Shown one piece after another: positions 1,255-57,757 of a DNA stretch of 64,000 nucleotides (its first letter is position 1; each line of letters begins with the position of its first letter). Both the position numbers and the translations under genes were made by a program. The notes under the pieces were generated by a model. The model worked only from the letters and a program-made list of their open reading frames with translations. It was not told the origin of the DNA and made no database searches. The DNA comes from Allobosea lupini (lineage in GTDB: Bacteria > Pseudomonadota > Alphaproteobacteria > Rhizobiales > Beijerinckiaceae), in NCBI RefSeq assembly GCF_900109525.1, contig NZ_FOAN01000009.1, positions 62,001 to 126,000 on the forward strand, written 5' to 3'.

Positions 1255-1650
1255 CCGCCAGTCGGCCGGACGGCCGCTCCTGCTCCGGCGGGGGAGGAAA
1301 GTCCGGGCTCCACGGAAACACGGTGCCGGATAACGTCCGGCGGGGGCGACCCCAGGGAAAGCGCCACAGAGATCGAACCGCCGCATGCTTGCGCATGCGG
1401 TAAGGGTGAAAAGGTGCGGTAAGAGCGCACCGCGGACCCGGCAACGGGGACGGCATGGCAAGCCCCACCGGGAGCAAGACCGAATAGGGACGATGCTCGC
1501 CCGCAAGGGAGGAGGGGCCGGTTTCCAGGCCCAGTCGTCCGGGTTGGTTGCTCGAGGCGCGCAGCAATGCGCGTCCCAGAGGAATGGCCGTCACGTCGGG
1601 AGAGCGATCTCCCGGCCATCCAAAACCCGGCTTACAGGCCGGCTGGCACC
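1255..1650 (+). ncRNA. rnpB: RNase P RNA, bacterial type A
   Basis: The catalytic RNA of RNase P, which trims tRNA 5' ends. The diagnostic 5' core GAGGAAAGTCCGGGCTCC is at 1293-1310, and the 3' core AGAGGAATGGCCGTC begins near 1570. The closing P1 helix can be drawn: GCCAGTCGGCC at 1257-1267 pairs with GGCCGGCTGGC at 1637-1647 with a single G-U. AACCCGGCTTACAGG just before the 3' strand is the usual RNase P ending. The length, near 395 nt, is normal. The exact ends are estimated from the P1 pairing. A strong terminator follows at 1665. Confidence 0.95.
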
Positions 1651-1664
1651 CCTTCCGATATCGA

Positions 1665-1692
1665 AAAGGGCCGGGATCGCTCCCGGCCCTTT
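1665..1692 (+). terminator. Rho-independent terminator after rnpB (bidirectional)
   Basis: A perfect 12-bp stem, AAAGGGCCGGGA / TCCCGGCCCTTT, around a TCGC loop. It lies just past the rnpB 3' end and is A/T-flanked on both sides, so it can also stop the convergent MBL-hydrolase transcript. Confidence 0.85.
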
Positions 1693-1712
1693 CGTGTTCG
1701 CCGCGGCTGCGA

Positions 1713-2666
1713 TCAGAGTGCGTAGCTCCAATCGGCGGGAACGAAGCGGAAGGCCGAGCCGTCCTTCAGCACCTTGCCGAAGCCGGGGAAGGGCATGTGC
1801 GCCCCGCTGATCAGCAATCCGTCGGCGGCGGCCATGTCGAGCACCCGCCGGCGCGAGGCTGCCGCCTGCTTGCCGTCGGCGTCGAAGACGAAGGTCACCT
1901 CCGGCTGCGCGGTCTGGATCACGACGTTGTGGATGCTGTCGCCAACGAGGAGGAGCTGCTCGTTGCCCGACGCGACGCGCAGGATGCTGTGGCCGGGGGT
2001 ATGACCGGGCGCATGCTCGAGCGCAAGGCCGGGGGCGACCTCTCCGGCCTTCACCTTTCGGGTCCGGCTCGCATAGGGCGCGAGCGCATTCCGGGCCGAG
2101 GCGAAGAAGGGTTTCACTTCGGCCGGCGCCTGGTTGAGGATGCCGTCATCGTGCCAGAAGGCATGTTCGGTCTCGTTGATGACCAGCTCGGCATTCGGGA
2201 AGCGCGCCGTCTTCTCGGCAGTGAGCAGGCCCTCGTGGTGATCAGGATGGGCATGGGTCAGGATGATCGCGTCGATCTGTTCCGGCGTGATGCCGGCGGT
2301 GCGCAGATTGCTCTCGGCCCGCCCCATGGTGTCGCCCATCGCGTTCCAAGCGCCGGCGCCGGTATCGAGCAGATAGGTCTTTTCCTTGGTGTTGATGACA
2401 AAGGTGTTGACCGCGGTGGGCAGGCGTTCGCCCTGGCCGGCATTGGCGAGGCTCTGGCGGATCGCGGCGGGGTCGCTGCCGCTGAAGACCTTGGTATCGA
2501 AGGGGATGTAACCGTCGAGGATCGCGGTGATCTCGAGGTCGCCGAGCTTGCGGCGATAGATGCCCGGCACCTGGTTGCCGGCGAGGGGGGCGCGGGCTGC
2601 GGCGGGCAGGACGGGCGCAAGCGCAGTGGCCGCGGCCGCTGCAAGGACATGGCGGCGATCGATCAT
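1713..2666 (-). CDS. MBL-fold metallo-hydrolase, exported
   Basis: About 317 residues. The start chosen is the ATG at 2666, because it opens a signal peptide with a double arginine (MIDRRHVLAAAAATALAP) that suits export, possibly by Tat. An in-frame TTG at 2717 lies upstream. The metallo-beta-lactamase metal-binding motif THAHPDH, a later H in GHTPGHS and an aspartate in LVGDS place it in the metallo-hydrolase superfamily, near the lactonase-like/AhlS-type subgroup. The substrate cannot be read from sequence. It converges on rnpB and shares its terminator. A second, cytoplasmic-looking relative is encoded at 31579-32397. Confidence 0.83.
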   Translation of the reverse strand: MIDRRHVLAAAAATALAPVLPAAARAPLAGNQVPGIYRRKLGDLEITAILDGYIPFDTKVFSGSDPAAIRQSLANAGQGERLPTAVNTFVINTKEKTYLLDTGAGAWNAMGDTMGRAESNLRTAGITPEQIDAIILTHAHPDHHEGLLTAEKTARFPNAELVINETEHAFWHDDGILNQAPAEVKPFFASARNALAPYASRTRKVKAGEVAPGLALEHAPGHTPGHSILRVASGNEQLLLVGDSIHNVVIQTAQPEVTFVFDADGKQAAASRRRVLDMAAADGLLISGAHMPFPGFGKVLKDGSAFRFVPADWSYAL

Positions 2667-2783
2667 GGGGATGTTCCAGAAGCTGAGATTGCGGCTCCGG
2701 AAACGATGCCTGCTCAAGGCAGGCCAAATCGTCTCACGGCCGGAGGGATGCCCGGCCGTGAGGATCAGATGGGTGGCGTAAGG

Positions 2784-3209
2784 TCAGCCTGCAACCGTCA
2801 GCTGGACGTCGATGTTGCCCCGGGTCGCATCGGAATACGGGCAGACGATATGGGCCTTCTGGACGAGGTCCTCGAGCTTGGCCTTGTCGATGCCCGGCGC
2901 CGAAATCGTCAGCTTTGCGGCGATGCCAAAGCCCTTGCCGTCATCGCGCGGGCCAATGCCGATATCGGCGCTGACGCGGGCGTCGTCCGGGATCTTCACG
3001 CCCTCCTTGCCGGCGGCGAACTTGAGCGCGCCGAGGAAGCAGGCCGAATAGCCCATGGCGAAGAGCTGCTCGGGATTGGTGCCCTCGCCACCGCCGCCGC
3101 CGAGCTCCTTCGGCGTGTTCAGCACGAGCTTGACGTTGCCGGTGTCGGTCGCGGCCTGGCCTTCGCGGCCACCGGTGGCGGAACCATGGGCGGTGTAGAG
3201 GATCTTCAT
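2784..3209 (-). CDS. ohr: Organic hydroperoxide resistance protein Ohr
   Basis: A 141-residue OsmC/Ohr-family thiol peroxidase that reduces organic hydroperoxides in the cytoplasm, using dihydrolipoyl protein thiols in the known members. The two catalytic cysteines are present at C57 ([10 protein letters not shown]) and C123 ([11 protein letters not shown]), and the conserved N-terminal Arg (GGREG) is at residue 15. The start is ATG 3209 behind AAGGAGAG. The gene is divergent from the ohrR repressor at 3432, and the shared intergenic region has a perfect OhrR-type palindrome. Confidence 0.95.
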
Positions 3210-54029: not shown

Positions 54030-54326
54030 CTATTCCGCCGCTGGCTGGAAGGCCATGCTCGGTGCTGGAATGAGCGCTATGGCATGAGCCGCCATATCGG
54101 CTGCCGTCTCGGGATCGGCCTTCAATTCACTGGGTGCGCGAGCGCGCGGGACCGTCTTGCCGTCCTCGACCATCGACTCGATCCAGAGCGCGAGCGCCTC
54201 GGGCGCATTCGCCATGGCCTCGTCCAGCGTATCGCCGGCCGAGAAGCAGCCGGGCAGATCCGGAAACCAGACGCCGACGGCGTGGTCGGGACCGGCGTCC
54301 TCGATGATGGCGACGTAGTAGGTCAA
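54030..54326 (-). CDS. hicB: Second HicB-type antitoxin
   Basis: 98 residues starting from TTG 54326, one base after the stop of the preceding hicB. The HicB partial RNase H-like fold is recognisable: YYVAIIEDAGPDHAVGVWFPDLPGCFSAGDTLDEAMANAPEALALWIE. It resembles the neighbouring HicB in the core but differs elsewhere. No clear DNA-binding domain follows. It may be a divergent duplicate that widens or tunes neutralisation, or it may act on another HicA. Confidence 0.78.
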   Translation of the reverse strand: MTYYVAIIEDAGPDHAVGVWFPDLPGCFSAGDTLDEAMANAPEALALWIESMVEDGKTVPRARAPSELKADPETAADMAAHAIALIPAPSMAFQPAAE

Positions 54327-54327
54327 T

Positions 54328-54624
54328 TCACTCGGCGCCCATGGGCGCGCGTGCGCGATCAAAAGGAACCGCCATAAGGATCGCATCCTTAGATGCTTCA
54401 ATGAACTCTGGATCATCACGCAGTTCGTCGATCGTGCGCGGTTCCGGGAATTCCGAGGCTGTATCCTCGGTCCAGCTTTCAGCGGCAAACTCCAAGACTT
54501 CGCGCGCCTGTCGAAAAGCGTCGTCGAGTGTGTCGCCGGCAGTGAACACGCCCTTCACATCCGGAAAGAACACACCGAAGCAGGATGTCTCGTCCTTATG
54601 GACGACCGCAATGTAATGCTGCAT
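54328..54624 (-). CDS. hicB: HicB-type antitoxin
   Basis: 98 residues from ATG 54624. The HicB core HYIAVVHKDETSCFGVFFPDVKGVFTAGDTLDDAFRQAREVLEFAAE is clear. The C-terminal part contains TIDELRDDPEFIEASKDAILMAVPF. HicB folds around HicA and blocks its catalytic histidine. It follows hicA by 12 bases and is directly followed by a second hicB, a TGA-A-TTG junction. Confidence 0.87.
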   Translation of the reverse strand: MQHYIAVVHKDETSCFGVFFPDVKGVFTAGDTLDDAFRQAREVLEFAAESWTEDTASEFPEPRTIDELRDDPEFIEASKDAILMAVPFDRARAPMGAE

Positions 54625-54636
54625 CGCGACCTTCGT

Positions 54637-54831
54637 TCAATCCCGTTCCCAGCCCGCATCCTTGTATATCGCATGAACCGTCCCGATGGGAATGTCCCGC
54701 CGCGGATGGGTGACTACGACCATGCGCTTCGTCGTCTCATGCACGAATTTCTGATGCGAGCCGCGAACACTCTTCAGAACGAAGCCCTCGCGCTTGAGGC
54801 GGCGAATGATGTCGGCGCTATTGTTCAGCAT
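54637..54831 (-). CDS. hicA: HicA toxin
   Basis: 64 residues, double-stranded RNA-binding-like fold. The catalytic histidine is H26 in VRGSHQKFVH, followed by VVVTHPRRDIPIGTVHAIYKDAGW, the usual HicA tail. HicA cleaves mRNA and tmRNA. ATG 54831 has GAGGTG upstream. It leads a three-gene unit with two hicB genes, which is unusual for this module. Confidence 0.9.
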   Translation of the reverse strand: MLNNSADIIRRLKREGFVLKSVRGSHQKFVHETTKRMVVVTHPRRDIPIGTVHAIYKDAGWERD

Positions 54832-54864: not shown

Positions 54865-55281
54865 TCACGCTTTTACCTTCAGCTCCGAAAGCGATTGGAA
54901 TTCAGCGTCACCGGGGCGCTTCACTTGCCATAGTACCCAGCCGTCAAGACGTGTCTTTCGGCCACTTTTGGTGATCGCTACTCCGCTTGCTGCACCGGAT
55001 GGGCTATCAAAACGAATGTTCTCGACGAGCCAAGAACCGTTATCGATCAATCCAACATAGTGCTTGCCGTTATATGACATGCTGACTTGTGTGCCATGAG
55101 GCAGCGATACACCTTTCCCTGACCAACCTCGGCCTGTCGATCCCTTGGGGAGTACGATTTGCTGGTCAATATTTAGAAGGCGTCTGAGGACGTCATTTGG
55201 TGTGTCGTCGAAGCTCTTTCGTTCCGTTTCGATTTTGCGATGAACATCGAAGTCGATCTCAATTGTCCGCATCGCGCACAT
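54865..55281 (-). CDS. RHH plus RAMA-like domain protein, AT-rich
   Basis: 138 residues from ATG 55281 (GGAGAG upstream). The first 38 residues (IEIDFDVHRKIETERKSFDD then TPNDVLRRLLNI) resemble the ribbon-helix-helix dimer motif of SeqA. The rest (GVSLPHGTQVSMSYNGKHY, SPSGAASGVAI, LDGWVLWQVKRPG) resembles the RAMA/DUF4357 domain seen beside restriction enzymes and methylases. Base composition is clearly more AT-rich than the neighbours, as is the 100 bases upstream, which suggests recent acquisition. I do not recognise a named gene. DNA binding is likely. Confidence 0.65.
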   Translation of the reverse strand: MCAMRTIEIDFDVHRKIETERKSFDDTPNDVLRRLLNIDQQIVLPKGSTGRGWSGKGVSLPHGTQVSMSYNGKHYVGLIDNGSWLVENIRFDSPSGAASGVAITKSGRKTRLDGWVLWQVKRPGDAEFQSLSELKVKA

Positions 55282-55381
55282 GCGAGCTCTCTCCAGTTGA
55301 TACGGAGAGGTTACGGTAGTGATTTTGCAGTTTCAAGCGAAAAAAGTTTTTTGAGCTTTTTGAGGGATCGGCTTGCGGGTC

Positions 55382-57757
55382 TCACCCCGCCTTCTGCACG
55401 AACGAGTCCAGCACCATCTTCCTACCGGCCTTGTCGAAATCGACGGTCAGCTTGTTGCCGTCGACGCTGGCGACCGAGCCGGGGCCGAACTTGACGTGGA
55501 AGACGCGGGCGCCGGGGTCGAAGGCCGAGGTTCCCGTCGACTTTGCCGTCAGCTCACCCTCGATCAGCACCGGGCCACGCTGGCGGCCGCCGCCTGATCC
55601 GAAGCCGCGCTGGCCGGCTTCGGAGAAGCCGGAGCTGTTGCCGCCGGAGCCGAACTTCGCCTTGTTCTCCTGGGCGCGCTGCCAGCCCGGCGTCTGGTAG
55701 GAGGAGCCGAAGCTCTCCATGCGCTCGAAGCGCGAGGCGCCGTAGCCGCCCTGGCCGTAGGCCGTGGGCGCCTGGACGACCTCGACATGGTCCTCCGGCA
55801 ATTCGTCGATGAAGCGCGAGGGCAGGCTCGACTGCCAGAGGCCGTGGATGCGGCGGTTCGAGGCGAAATAGAGCTTGAGGCGCTTGCGGGCGCGGGTCAG
55901 GCCGACATGGGCGAGGCGGCGCTCCTCTTCGAGGCCGGCGCGGCCGTTCTCGTCGAGGGCGCGCTGGCTCGGGAACAGCCCTTCCTCCCAGCCGGGCAGG
56001 AAGACGGTGTCGAATTCCAGCCCCTTGGCGGCGTGCAGCGTCATGATCGAGACGCGGGCGCCGCCATCGCCGCTGTCGGCGTCCATCACCAGCGAGACGT
56101 GTTCGAGGAAGGACGGCAAATCGGGGAACTCGTCGAGCGAGCGCACCAGCTCCTTGAGGTTTTCCAGGCGCCCGGCGGCGTCGGCCGAGCGGTCCTTCTG
56201 CCACATCTCGGTGTAGCCGCTCTCCTCCAGCACCAGCTCGGCGAGTTCGCCCTGCTGCATGCTCTCGGCGCGTCCCGACCAGCGGGCGAAGGCCTCGACC
56301 AGCTCACGCAGGGCGGTGCGGGCCTTGGGCTTCAGTTCCTCGGTCTCGACCACCGCCCGGGCCGACTGCATCAGCGAGAAGCCGGTGGCGCGGGCATGGT
56401 TGTGCAGCAGCTGGATGGTGGCGTCGCCGAGGCCGCGCTTGGGCACGTTGACGATGCGCTCGAAAGCGAGGTCGTCGGTCGGGCTCACGACACAGCGCAG
56501 ATAGGCCATCGCGTCGCGGATCTCGGCGCGCTCGTAGAAGCGCGGGCCGCCGATGACGCGATAGGGCACGCCAACATGGATGAGCCGCTCCTCCATCTCG
56601 CGCATCTGCGCGGAGATGCGGACGAGGATCGCCACTTCGGAGAGGTTCTCGCCCTTGGACTGCATCGCCTCGATCTCGTCGGAGATCAGGCGCGCTTCCT
56701 CCTGGCTGTCCCAGGCGCCGGTGATGGTGACCTTCTCGCCGGCCTCGTCCTCGGTGCGCAGCGTCTTGCCGAGGCGACCCTCGTTCCGGGCGATCAGCTT
56801 GGCGGCGGTGGCGAGGATATGGCCGGTCGAGCGGTAGTTGCGCTCCAGCCGGACCACGGTCGCGCCCGGGAAGTCGTGCTCGAAGCGCAGGATGTTGTCG
56901 ACCTCGGCGCCGCGCCAGCCATAGATCGACTGGTCGTCGTCGCCGACGCAGGCGATGTTGCGCCGGCCCTGGGCCAGCAGCCGCAGCCAGAGATACTGGG
57001 CGACGTTGGTGTCCTGGTACTCGTCGACGAGGATGTAGCGGAAGCGCTCGTGATAGTTCGCCAGCAGCTCCGGATGCTCGCGGAACAGCGTCAGGCAGTG
57101 CAGCAGGAGATCGCCGAAATCGACGGCGTTCAGCGTCTTCAGCCGGTCCTGATAGGCGGCGTAGAGCTTGCCGCCCTTGCCGTTGGCGAAGACGCCGGAT
57201 TCGCCCGGCGGCACGTCCTTGGGCGCGAGGCCGCGATTCTTCCATGAGTCGATGAAGCCGGCCAGCATCCGGCCGGGCCAACGCTTCTCGTCGATCCCCT
57301 CGGCCTGGATCACCTGCTTCATCAGGCGGATCTGGTCGTCGGTGTCGAGAATGGTGAAATCGGAGCGCAGGTCGACCAGCTCGGCATGACGGCGCAGCAG
57401 CTTGGCCGAGATCGAGTGGAAGGTGCCAAGCCAGGGCATGCCCTCGGCGACCGGGCCGACGAGGTTCGCGACGCGCTCCTTCATCTCGCGCGCCGCCTTA
57501 TTGGTGAAGGTCACCGAGAGGATCTGCGAGGGATAGGCGCGGCCGGTCGCGATCAGATGAGCGATGCGGGTCGTGAGGACGCGGGTCTTGCCGGTGCCGG
57601 CGCCGGCCAGAACCAGCACGGGGCCGTCGGTCGCCTCGACCGCCAGGCGCTGCTCCGGATTGAGCCCCTGCAGATAGCCGGCCGCCGGCTGCGCGGCCGC
57701 GCGCGATGCGAGGCCGCCGGGGCGGGGCAGGGGGGCGGAGGTGGTGTGGTCTGACAA
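55382..57757 (-). CDS. uvrD: UvrD/PcrA-type DNA helicase
   Basis: 791 residues, superfamily 1A helicase. Motif I is GAGTGKTRVL, Ia FTNKAAREMKERV, II VDEYQDTN, III GDDDQSIYGWRGA, and IV to VI are present (IMTLHAAKGLEFDTVFLPGWEEGLFP, LTRARKRL). The C-terminal 150 residues form the Gly-rich linker and a Tudor-like end (VKFGPGSVASVDGNKLTVDF). It unwinds DNA in excision and mismatch repair. The start codon is TTG 57757, with no strong ribosome site, and the real start could differ by a few codons. Confidence 0.95.
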   Translation of the reverse strand: MSDHTTSAPLPRPGGLASRAAAQPAAGYLQGLNPEQRLAVEATDGPVLVLAGAGTGKTRVLTTRIAHLIATGRAYPSQILSVTFTNKAAREMKERVANLVGPVAEGMPWLGTFHSISAKLLRRHAELVDLRSDFTILDTDDQIRLMKQVIQAEGIDEKRWPGRMLAGFIDSWKNRGLAPKDVPPGESGVFANGKGGKLYAAYQDRLKTLNAVDFGDLLLHCLTLFREHPELLANYHERFRYILVDEYQDTNVAQYLWLRLLAQGRRNIACVGDDDQSIYGWRGAEVDNILRFEHDFPGATVVRLERNYRSTGHILATAAKLIARNEGRLGKTLRTEDEAGEKVTITGAWDSQEEARLISDEIEAMQSKGENLSEVAILVRISAQMREMEERLIHVGVPYRVIGGPRFYERAEIRDAMAYLRCVVSPTDDLAFERIVNVPKRGLGDATIQLLHNHARATGFSLMQSARAVVETEELKPKARTALRELVEAFARWSGRAESMQQGELAELVLEESGYTEMWQKDRSADAAGRLENLKELVRSLDEFPDLPSFLEHVSLVMDADSGDGGARVSIMTLHAAKGLEFDTVFLPGWEEGLFPSQRALDENGRAGLEEERRLAHVGLTRARKRLKLYFASNRRIHGLWQSSLPSRFIDELPEDHVEVVQAPTAYGQGGYGASRFERMESFGSSYQTPGWQRAQENKAKFGSGGNSSGFSEAGQRGFGSGGGRQRGPVLIEGELTAKSTGTSAFDPGARVFHVKFGPGSVASVDGNKLTVDFDKAGRKMVLDSFVQKAG

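Follow-up and report, generated by a model that had tools for sequence, protein, structure and literature searches.

What does a small, AT-rich gene do that joins a SeqA_N-like ribbon-helix-helix (RHH) half to a RAMA half, and how did it come to lie between uvrD and a hic module? The question is raised by a minus-strand gene at 54865..55281 of the window (the whole stretch of 64,000 nucleotides that was analysed), hereafter the RHH-RAMA gene, which was defined from its open reading frame (ORF) of 138 aa, from Pfam matches to SeqA_N and RAMA and from a family alignment of 42 rows. We favour the reading that the gene is mobile and that its product is a DNA-binding protein with a SeqA-like layout, which dimerises and regulates its own expression, with a probability of about 0.6. 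Rival readings were weighed against it where the evidence bears on them; their odds overlap and several of them can hold together.

A low-GC gene between uvrD and hicA

The ORF is intact and shows no visible decay. A likely ribosome-binding site recognised by eye (GGAGAG, 55289..55294, minus strand) lies 7 bases upstream of the start codon (ATG, 55281), homology with relatives begins at the second Met codon, at 55272, and a consensus promoter scan found none. The gene is separated from uvrD by a spacer of 100 bases (55282-55381). With 51.1% GC in the gene and 47% in the spacer, compared to 67.2% in the window, the sharp shift in composition described earlier is real: only 3 of 1,272 sliding windows of 417 bases have a GC content as low as that of the gene. 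The position described for it, adjoining uvrD and the hic module, is also correct.

The gene had first been called an orphan, which is wrong, since we found 49 distinct relatives that cover both domains, scattered over genomes, plasmids and phages. Most are alphaproteobacterial; two of the plasmids are betaproteobacterial and a few metagenome-assembled genomes (Saccharibacteria, Nitrospinota) lie outside. The relatives come from four plasmid loci (H1-H4), one phage (H8), ten viral contigs (one of which is locus L041 again) plus two more from a second alignment search, 31 loci of GTDB genomes, and five genomes of the class besides the window's own that carry strong relatives, three of which recur among the 31 GTDB loci. 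These recurrences are genes found identically by two routes (L004/L038, L005/L052 and L006/L055), of which the second of each pair was counted, and the total of 49 includes L025, a near copy of L024, and excludes a distant match on a Rhodococcus plasmid (L019, H5) and weak or partial class matches (L002, L008-L014). The viral contig L022, identical to locus L041, was excluded from the neighbourhood, GC and upstream counts. When viral contigs were searched with the single window protein, no match was obtained, and it was the alignment queries that did find relatives there. The window protein had no match in PHROGs, and its only PADLOC match was PDC-S14, over the RAMA part. A tree of 42 members contains many weak branches and served only to indicate roughly which members are close to each other.

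Several observations bear on how the gene reached its place. The conserved border of the site is uvrD, a helicase gene identified by Pfam (55382..57757, minus strand), which was present in 61/61 genomes of the genus that were searched, the window's own included. The RHH-RAMA gene was absent from 36/36 same-genus genomes searched, and tblastn did not detect it in the uvrD flanks of 29 same-genus relatives; in 11 of these 29, hicA follows uvrD after 83-245 bases without the gene between them, and in none of the 29 do the 200 bases that follow uvrD contain a repeat chain above two units. The gene and the repeat array that precedes it (see below) occupy this gap between uvrD and hicA, so that the locus looks like a single-gene insertion. 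In the whole class, 12 of 385 genomes match, own included, six with strong, full-length matches and the others weakly or over the RAMA part, and the gene has a lower GC content than its flanks in 40/45 loci. Considering its absence from all 36 same-genus genomes, its rarity in the class, its low GC content and the empty site in relatives, the RHH-RAMA gene is best read as a mobile gene, acquired here as an accessory gene on a chromosome.

Its downstream neighbours are hicA (54637..54831, minus strand), which starts 33 bases downstream of the stop codon of the RHH-RAMA gene, and a gene for a HicB-like antitoxin (54328..54624, minus strand), both identified by Pfam. That hicA lies so close downstream on the same strand might suggest that the RHH-RAMA gene is a third component of a hicAB toxin-antitoxin module, a reading that we consider very improbable. 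The linkage is not conserved, as shown by the 11/29 same-genus relatives that carry hicA after uvrD without the RHH-RAMA gene, and the 25 commonest families listed as neighbours of other members include neither HicA nor HicB. We thus rejected a partner role for HicAB: the hic neighbourhood looks incidental and hicA is probably not a functional partner. The hic locus itself (54030-54831) looks recombined. In 8/29 same-genus relatives, alignment with the window covers the first ~50 bases of hicA and all or part of the second hicB but not the hicA body, and in two loci (L130 and L132) the DNA alignment with the window continues through hicA and the first hicB.

A SeqA_N-like half and a predicted RAMA half

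Both domains named in the preliminary description, the SeqA_N-like RHH and RAMA, were borne out by Pfam, by the family profile, by profile-profile comparison and by structure prediction, an AlphaFold2 model (42 rows, mean pLDDT 87.3) matching RAMA structures over its C-terminal half and SeqA over its first 35 residues. The SeqA_N-like half (residues 1-35, 55168..55272, minus strand) was delimited from Pfam, from the family profile against the PDB and from structural superposition. The Pfam SeqA_N match of the window protein (E 2.5e-5, 23.9 bits) barely exceeds the cut-off of 23, and 29/42 family members match at E<=0.01. The best PDB matches of the 42-member profile were two SeqA sequences (1xrx, E 3.4e-4; 3fmt, E 4.6e-4), and VIA-align placed the first 35 residues of the model on SeqA 1xrx with an rmsd of 1.4 Å (Z 2.2). 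A Foldseek search of the first model against the PDB gave nothing at E<=0.001, SeqA being hinted at by probability only (0.91 and 0.66).

The likeness to Escherichia coli SeqA lies in the layout, with an N-terminal domain of 35 residues, a linker and then a DNA-binding domain. It does not extend to the details. The SeqA oligomerisation residues reported in PMC6225831 (T18, I21 and A25) are not kept in the window protein, which has R18, F21 and P25 instead, and the family conserves these other residues (R18 in 41/42, F21 in 41/42, P25 in 28/42), so that SeqA-type chains of the RHH-RAMA protein cannot be assumed. The SeqA C-terminal family, which binds hemimethylated GATC, is absent from the matches of the window protein and of the 42 members, the DNA half being RAMA instead. 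By these two features the protein does not belong to the SeqA family, and it is possible that it works in a SeqA-like manner. In the monomer model, residues 1-7 form a coil rather than a strand and are followed by two helices; by analogy with SeqA, we infer that the ribbon strand would lie at these residues. Its outward residues would then be T3, E5 and D7, of which E5 is found in 37/42 and D7 in 41/42 members. Acidic residues such as these are unusual on a DNA-reading ribbon.

The C-terminal half (residues 49-135, 54868..55128, minus strand) is predicted to have a RAMA fold, on the basis of the structure model and of profile-profile comparison with CcrM C-terminal domains. The Pfam RAMA family (PF18755) matches the window protein at E 1.6e-4 and 22 bits, under its cut-off of 35.2, and DUF4357 at E 0.092; across the family, 37/42 members match RAMA at E<=0.01. 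In a second look with VIA-align at 994 Foldseek chains, residues 51-135 superposed best on the RAMA domain of MPND (7ydw, Z 8.5, rmsd 2.4, 76 aligned; 7ydt, Z 8.3) and then on that of CcrM (6pbd, Z 7.4, rmsd 2.8, 75 aligned), and although a Z under 8 can mean a common arrangement, these three RAMA matches are well separated from all others, the next one having a Z of 3.6. Profile-profile comparison of this half with CcrM C-terminal domains (29 rows, 28 of them distinct, the CcrM of the window's own genome being present twice) gave a probability of 95.3% and a score of 45.6, while 20 column shuffles reached at most 21.9. A viral structure library gave nothing at E<=0.001 for the predicted model.

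We then compared the residues that hold DNA in the solved domains. In CcrM, S315, H317, N330, W332 and R350 are described as invariant residues that maintain the structure or bind phosphate, and the S315A mutation is reported to abolish DNA binding (PMC6787082). The profile-profile alignment, in which the CcrM numbering was checked, pairs them with S90, S92, D110, W112 and K132 of the window protein, and these positions are conserved in the 42 members: S/T at 90 in 39, S at 92 in 42, N/D at 110 in 42, W at 112 in 38 and R/K at 132 in 37. In MPND, S113, S115 and W135 touch the DNA backbone and, according to PMC9963953, each alanine mutant nearly abolishes binding; on the basis of spacing and fold, they correspond to S90, S92 and W112, the two serines preceding the tryptophan by 22 and 20 residues in both proteins. 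W112 has been lost in 4/42 members, and in L053, L056, L057 and L059 the RAMA half carries NGK where GW is conserved. The RAMA half has a net charge of +4 and the N-terminal half of -2, close to the family means of +3.9 and -1.2.

The protein therefore resembles the CcrM C-terminal domain (6pbd) by its fold, by the profile-profile match and by its DNA-phosphate residues, but it lacks a methyltransferase domain: there is no Pfam match to one of the CcrM type, the two halves account for the whole protein, and RAMA stands here alone with a SeqA_N half. MPND offers the nearest solved fold, with an equally spaced S-x-S...W, yet it is eukaryotic and its RAMA is fused to an MPN domain. Among prokaryotic RAMA fusions, GIY-YIG-RAMA and RAMA-Mrr-NTPase are described in PMC11037411 and DUF3780-RAMA in PMC12839542. 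Like the RHH-RAMA protein, these and a Hhe/PDC-S37-like protein at L008 have RAMA added to another module, which is there a nuclease or defence module, whereas no enzyme domain was found in the RHH-RAMA protein. Among the open-access papers listed in literature searches on these domains, we recognised none that describes a SeqA_N and RAMA pairing. In the L008 frame (1489-2865, minus strand), a C-terminal RAMA-like domain, 54% identical to that of the window protein, is joined to a GreA/GreB-like part and an MTES_1575 nuclease domain, and the frame matches PDC-S37 and Hhe in PADLOC. On a Sinorhizobium plasmid (L020, 5749-6309), a RAMA-like stretch corresponds to the C-terminal half only and has no annotated feature beneath it, no Pfam match and a weak PADLOC match to PDC-S14.

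A tandem 9-bp array as candidate operator

Four 9-bp units stand in tandem in the spacer in front of the gene, CCTCAAAAA GCTCAAAAA ACTTTTTTC GCTTGAAAC (55330..55365, minus strand); this array was found by a period-9 chain scan. The unit was defined as VCTH ([ACG]CT[ACT]) at exact 9-bp spacing and upstreams were tested for chains of at least three units. The pattern had been noticed first as TACTA-rich stretches among shared upstream words and was then tested on the same sequences. Such chains were found in 21/48 family upstreams (the duplicate locus L022, the near copy L025 and L068, which has an uncertain start, being excluded) and in 0/188 control upstreams of other genes from the same loci, which were defined with a crude gene caller and have a higher GC content (0.596 vs 0.453); among low-GC controls the count was likewise 0/47. 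Shuffles of the 48 upstreams gave a mean of 0.56 and a maximum of 4 with such a chain. When eight near relatives were removed, 17/40 upstreams still had one, and other periods from 6 to 14 gave at most 3/48 in the same three-unit test. The four-unit chain of the window was reached in a fraction of 0.0004 of 5,000 shuffles of its own upstream. Chains of at least three units were missing in 27/48 upstreams, including those of five divergent plasmid and phage members (L015-L018 and L021).

A stricter core gave the same period. Pairs of ACT[AT] at distance 9 occurred 24 times, compared to a shuffle mean of 0.9 and a maximum of 4, and never in the 188 controls. They were also raised at distances 8, 12, 18 and 21 (at distance 12 in 11/48 upstreams and 0/188 controls), the excess at 12, 18 and 21 being expected as a by-product of ACTACT and of triples. 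Arrays in the orientation of the gene mostly begin ~50-105 bases before its start. In 719 kb of loci, duplicates included, ten three-unit ACT[AT] arrays were found. Eight are located shortly before family members, one of which counts twice, and the other two lie elsewhere (L037, position 5008; L041, position 13597), being possible further targets or chance. A GANTC signal in the upstreams was considered and dropped: the 35 sites exceeded the 17.3 of random stretches of the same loci, but the rate of 0.56 per family upstream compared with 0.43 per AT-rich control.

The 9-bp array is thus a candidate operator that may control the RHH-RAMA gene, judging from sequence. It raises the possibility of a plain RHH repressor, whose N-terminal half would read the 9-bp repeats and whose RAMA half would only add backbone grip, and which would control its own and neighbouring mobile genes. 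Apart from the SeqA_N/RHH match and the exact 9-bp period of the upstream array, this reading finds a precedent in plasmid centromere-binding RHH proteins, which are described in PMC5016525 as also acting as repressors, their operons being preceded by direct or inverted repeats. These share with the RHH-RAMA protein an RHH-type half and repeats upstream of the gene, but the RHH-RAMA protein differs from them by its acidic ribbon residues, by the extra RAMA and by its non-palindromic 9-bp unit. That E5 and D7 would sit on the ribbon, that the unit is not palindromic and that the N-terminal half resembles SeqA_N, an oligomerisation domain, all weigh against simple repression. The members without W112 fall on both sides, since L053 and L057 keep arrays of three and four units whereas L056 and L059 have no chain of three units. 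Overall, we regard a plain repressor as a credible but somewhat improbable reading, and it is not exclusive of the dimerising, SeqA-like layout that we favour.

Because layout, DNA-gripping surface and array all point to it, the account of a dimerising, backbone-gripping and self-regulated protein is the best supported one. Adding to the computed fold, family, residue conservation, array and insertion, we infer dimerisation, DNA binding, array binding and autoregulation. The SeqA_N-type RHH half would make dimers, perhaps longer chains, and the RAMA half would grip the backbone of double-stranded DNA via its Ser-x-Ser...Trp surface, so that a dimer could hold two DNA stretches or cover a tract. 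It is probable that the protein assembles on the 9-bp repeats that precede its gene and that it restricts its own expression. Phage members may serve DNA steps encoded with them (methylation, replication or packaging), and on the chromosome here it would be an accessory gene that was acquired and came to lie between uvrD and hicA.

Neighbouring methylases and possible roles

We then considered whether the neighbours of the family point to a role in DNA modification. The preliminary description had stated that no methylase is nearby. When the 64 kb were scanned for motifs, two matches were obtained, neither of which was read as a methylase; the same type of scan missed the methylase of L035. 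Some relatives do adjoin adenine methylases. Among plasmid and viral loci, an adenine methylase lies within the two nearest genes in 5/16 (L017, L021, L024, L025 and L028), a count that includes the near copies L024 and L025. When the 16 whole records were screened for two methylase families only, PF01555 was found in two and PF02086 in two, all of them viral, and each time as the directly adjacent gene. At least two arrangements exist, since a D12 methylase lies upstream in L021 and L028 and another kind lies downstream in L024 and L025. In the phage regions of L024 and L025, the adenine-type methylase directly follows the gene and a cytosine-type methylase-like frame lies 1.3-1.5 kb further on, and in L028 a further methylase-like frame is the second gene upstream.

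Chromosomal members have an adenine methylase nearby in at least 3/31 loci: HsdM with HsdS in L035, an Eco57I-type enzyme with a BsuBI/PstI nuclease in L041, and M.Eco57I in L046. This is a minimum because the neighbour tally covers the 25 commonest families listed. N6_Mtase was seen within 6 kb of two of the 31 chromosomal sites (L035 and L046) when ~0.1 would be expected, by rough arithmetic from 63 N6_Mtase matches listed in ~118 Mb of 31 genomes, an expectation that defence islands would raise.

One hypothesis is that the RAMA half tells adenine-methylated from unmethylated DNA while the SeqA_N half pairs two sites, making the protein a functional counterpart of SeqA for DNA methylated by CcrM or by phage enzymes. 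The layout fits it, the window's own genome encodes a CcrM with a RAMA tail (G000:C14:606141-607370), the viral PF01555 and PF02086 genes are always neighbours, and L017, L035, L041 and L046 have adenine methylases within their two nearest genes, most with restriction-modification partners; an earlier study, as told in PMC9963953 and PMC11037411, also gave binding of 6mA by MPND. That report was not reproduced in the structural study, according to the same two articles, and the RAMA domains whose structures are solved, those of CcrM and MPND, are described as touching the DNA backbone only (PMC9963953, PMC6787082, PMC11037411), with MPND binding unchanged by 6mA in the structural study (PMC9963953). 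In addition, the motif scan of the 64 kb showed no methylase near the window gene, GANTC is little above AT-rich controls in the upstreams, and no methylase was seen among the nearest genes in 28/31 chromosomal loci, as far as the 25 commonest families listed and the motif scan reach. From the RAMA structures one would expect a grip indifferent to both sequence and methylation, and the neighbourhoods speak for some link with adenine methylation. Sensing of DNA modification by the RHH-RAMA protein is possible, and the hypothesis, which would refine rather than exclude the reading that we favour, strikes us as doubtful in this specific form.

Viral neighbourhoods also suggested a factor that coats the DNA of a phage or plasmid, for protection against restriction or for packaging. 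Terminase genes are among the two nearest genes per side in 5/12 viral loci (L026, L027, L029, L030 and L068), the placement in L027 and L030 coming from a reading of the frames since the family tally has no locus names. Three Prim-Pol neighbours were placed in L021, L027 and L029, methylases lie in L021, L024, L025 and L028, and restriction-modification genes lie beside L017, L035 and L041. The neighbours of chromosomal members are mixed, with metabolic families as well as phage portal, capsid and Clp protease among the 25 commonest families listed, which counts against such a role, and we find it unlikely.

A more ambitious version of the SeqA-like layout would see in the protein the SeqA analogue of Alphaproteobacteria and their phages, in which SeqA_N dimers or chains on the 9-bp repeats, with RAMA responding to methylation by CcrM or a neighbouring methylase, would time replication, packaging or expression of mobile DNA. 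We hold this to be quite unlikely. Alphaproteobacteria, which use CcrM, are not known to have a SeqA-like protein.

RAMA has been proposed to read adenine methylation, which is disputed, and the two solved examples considered here, those of CcrM and MPND, are parts of larger proteins. The RHH-RAMA family offers the domain in a protein of ~140 residues whose sole other domain is a pairing domain; a methylase sometimes adjoins the gene, and a candidate binding site is already at hand. The family thus makes two questions testable, whether RAMA reads methylation and whether Alphaproteobacteria have a SeqA-like protein.
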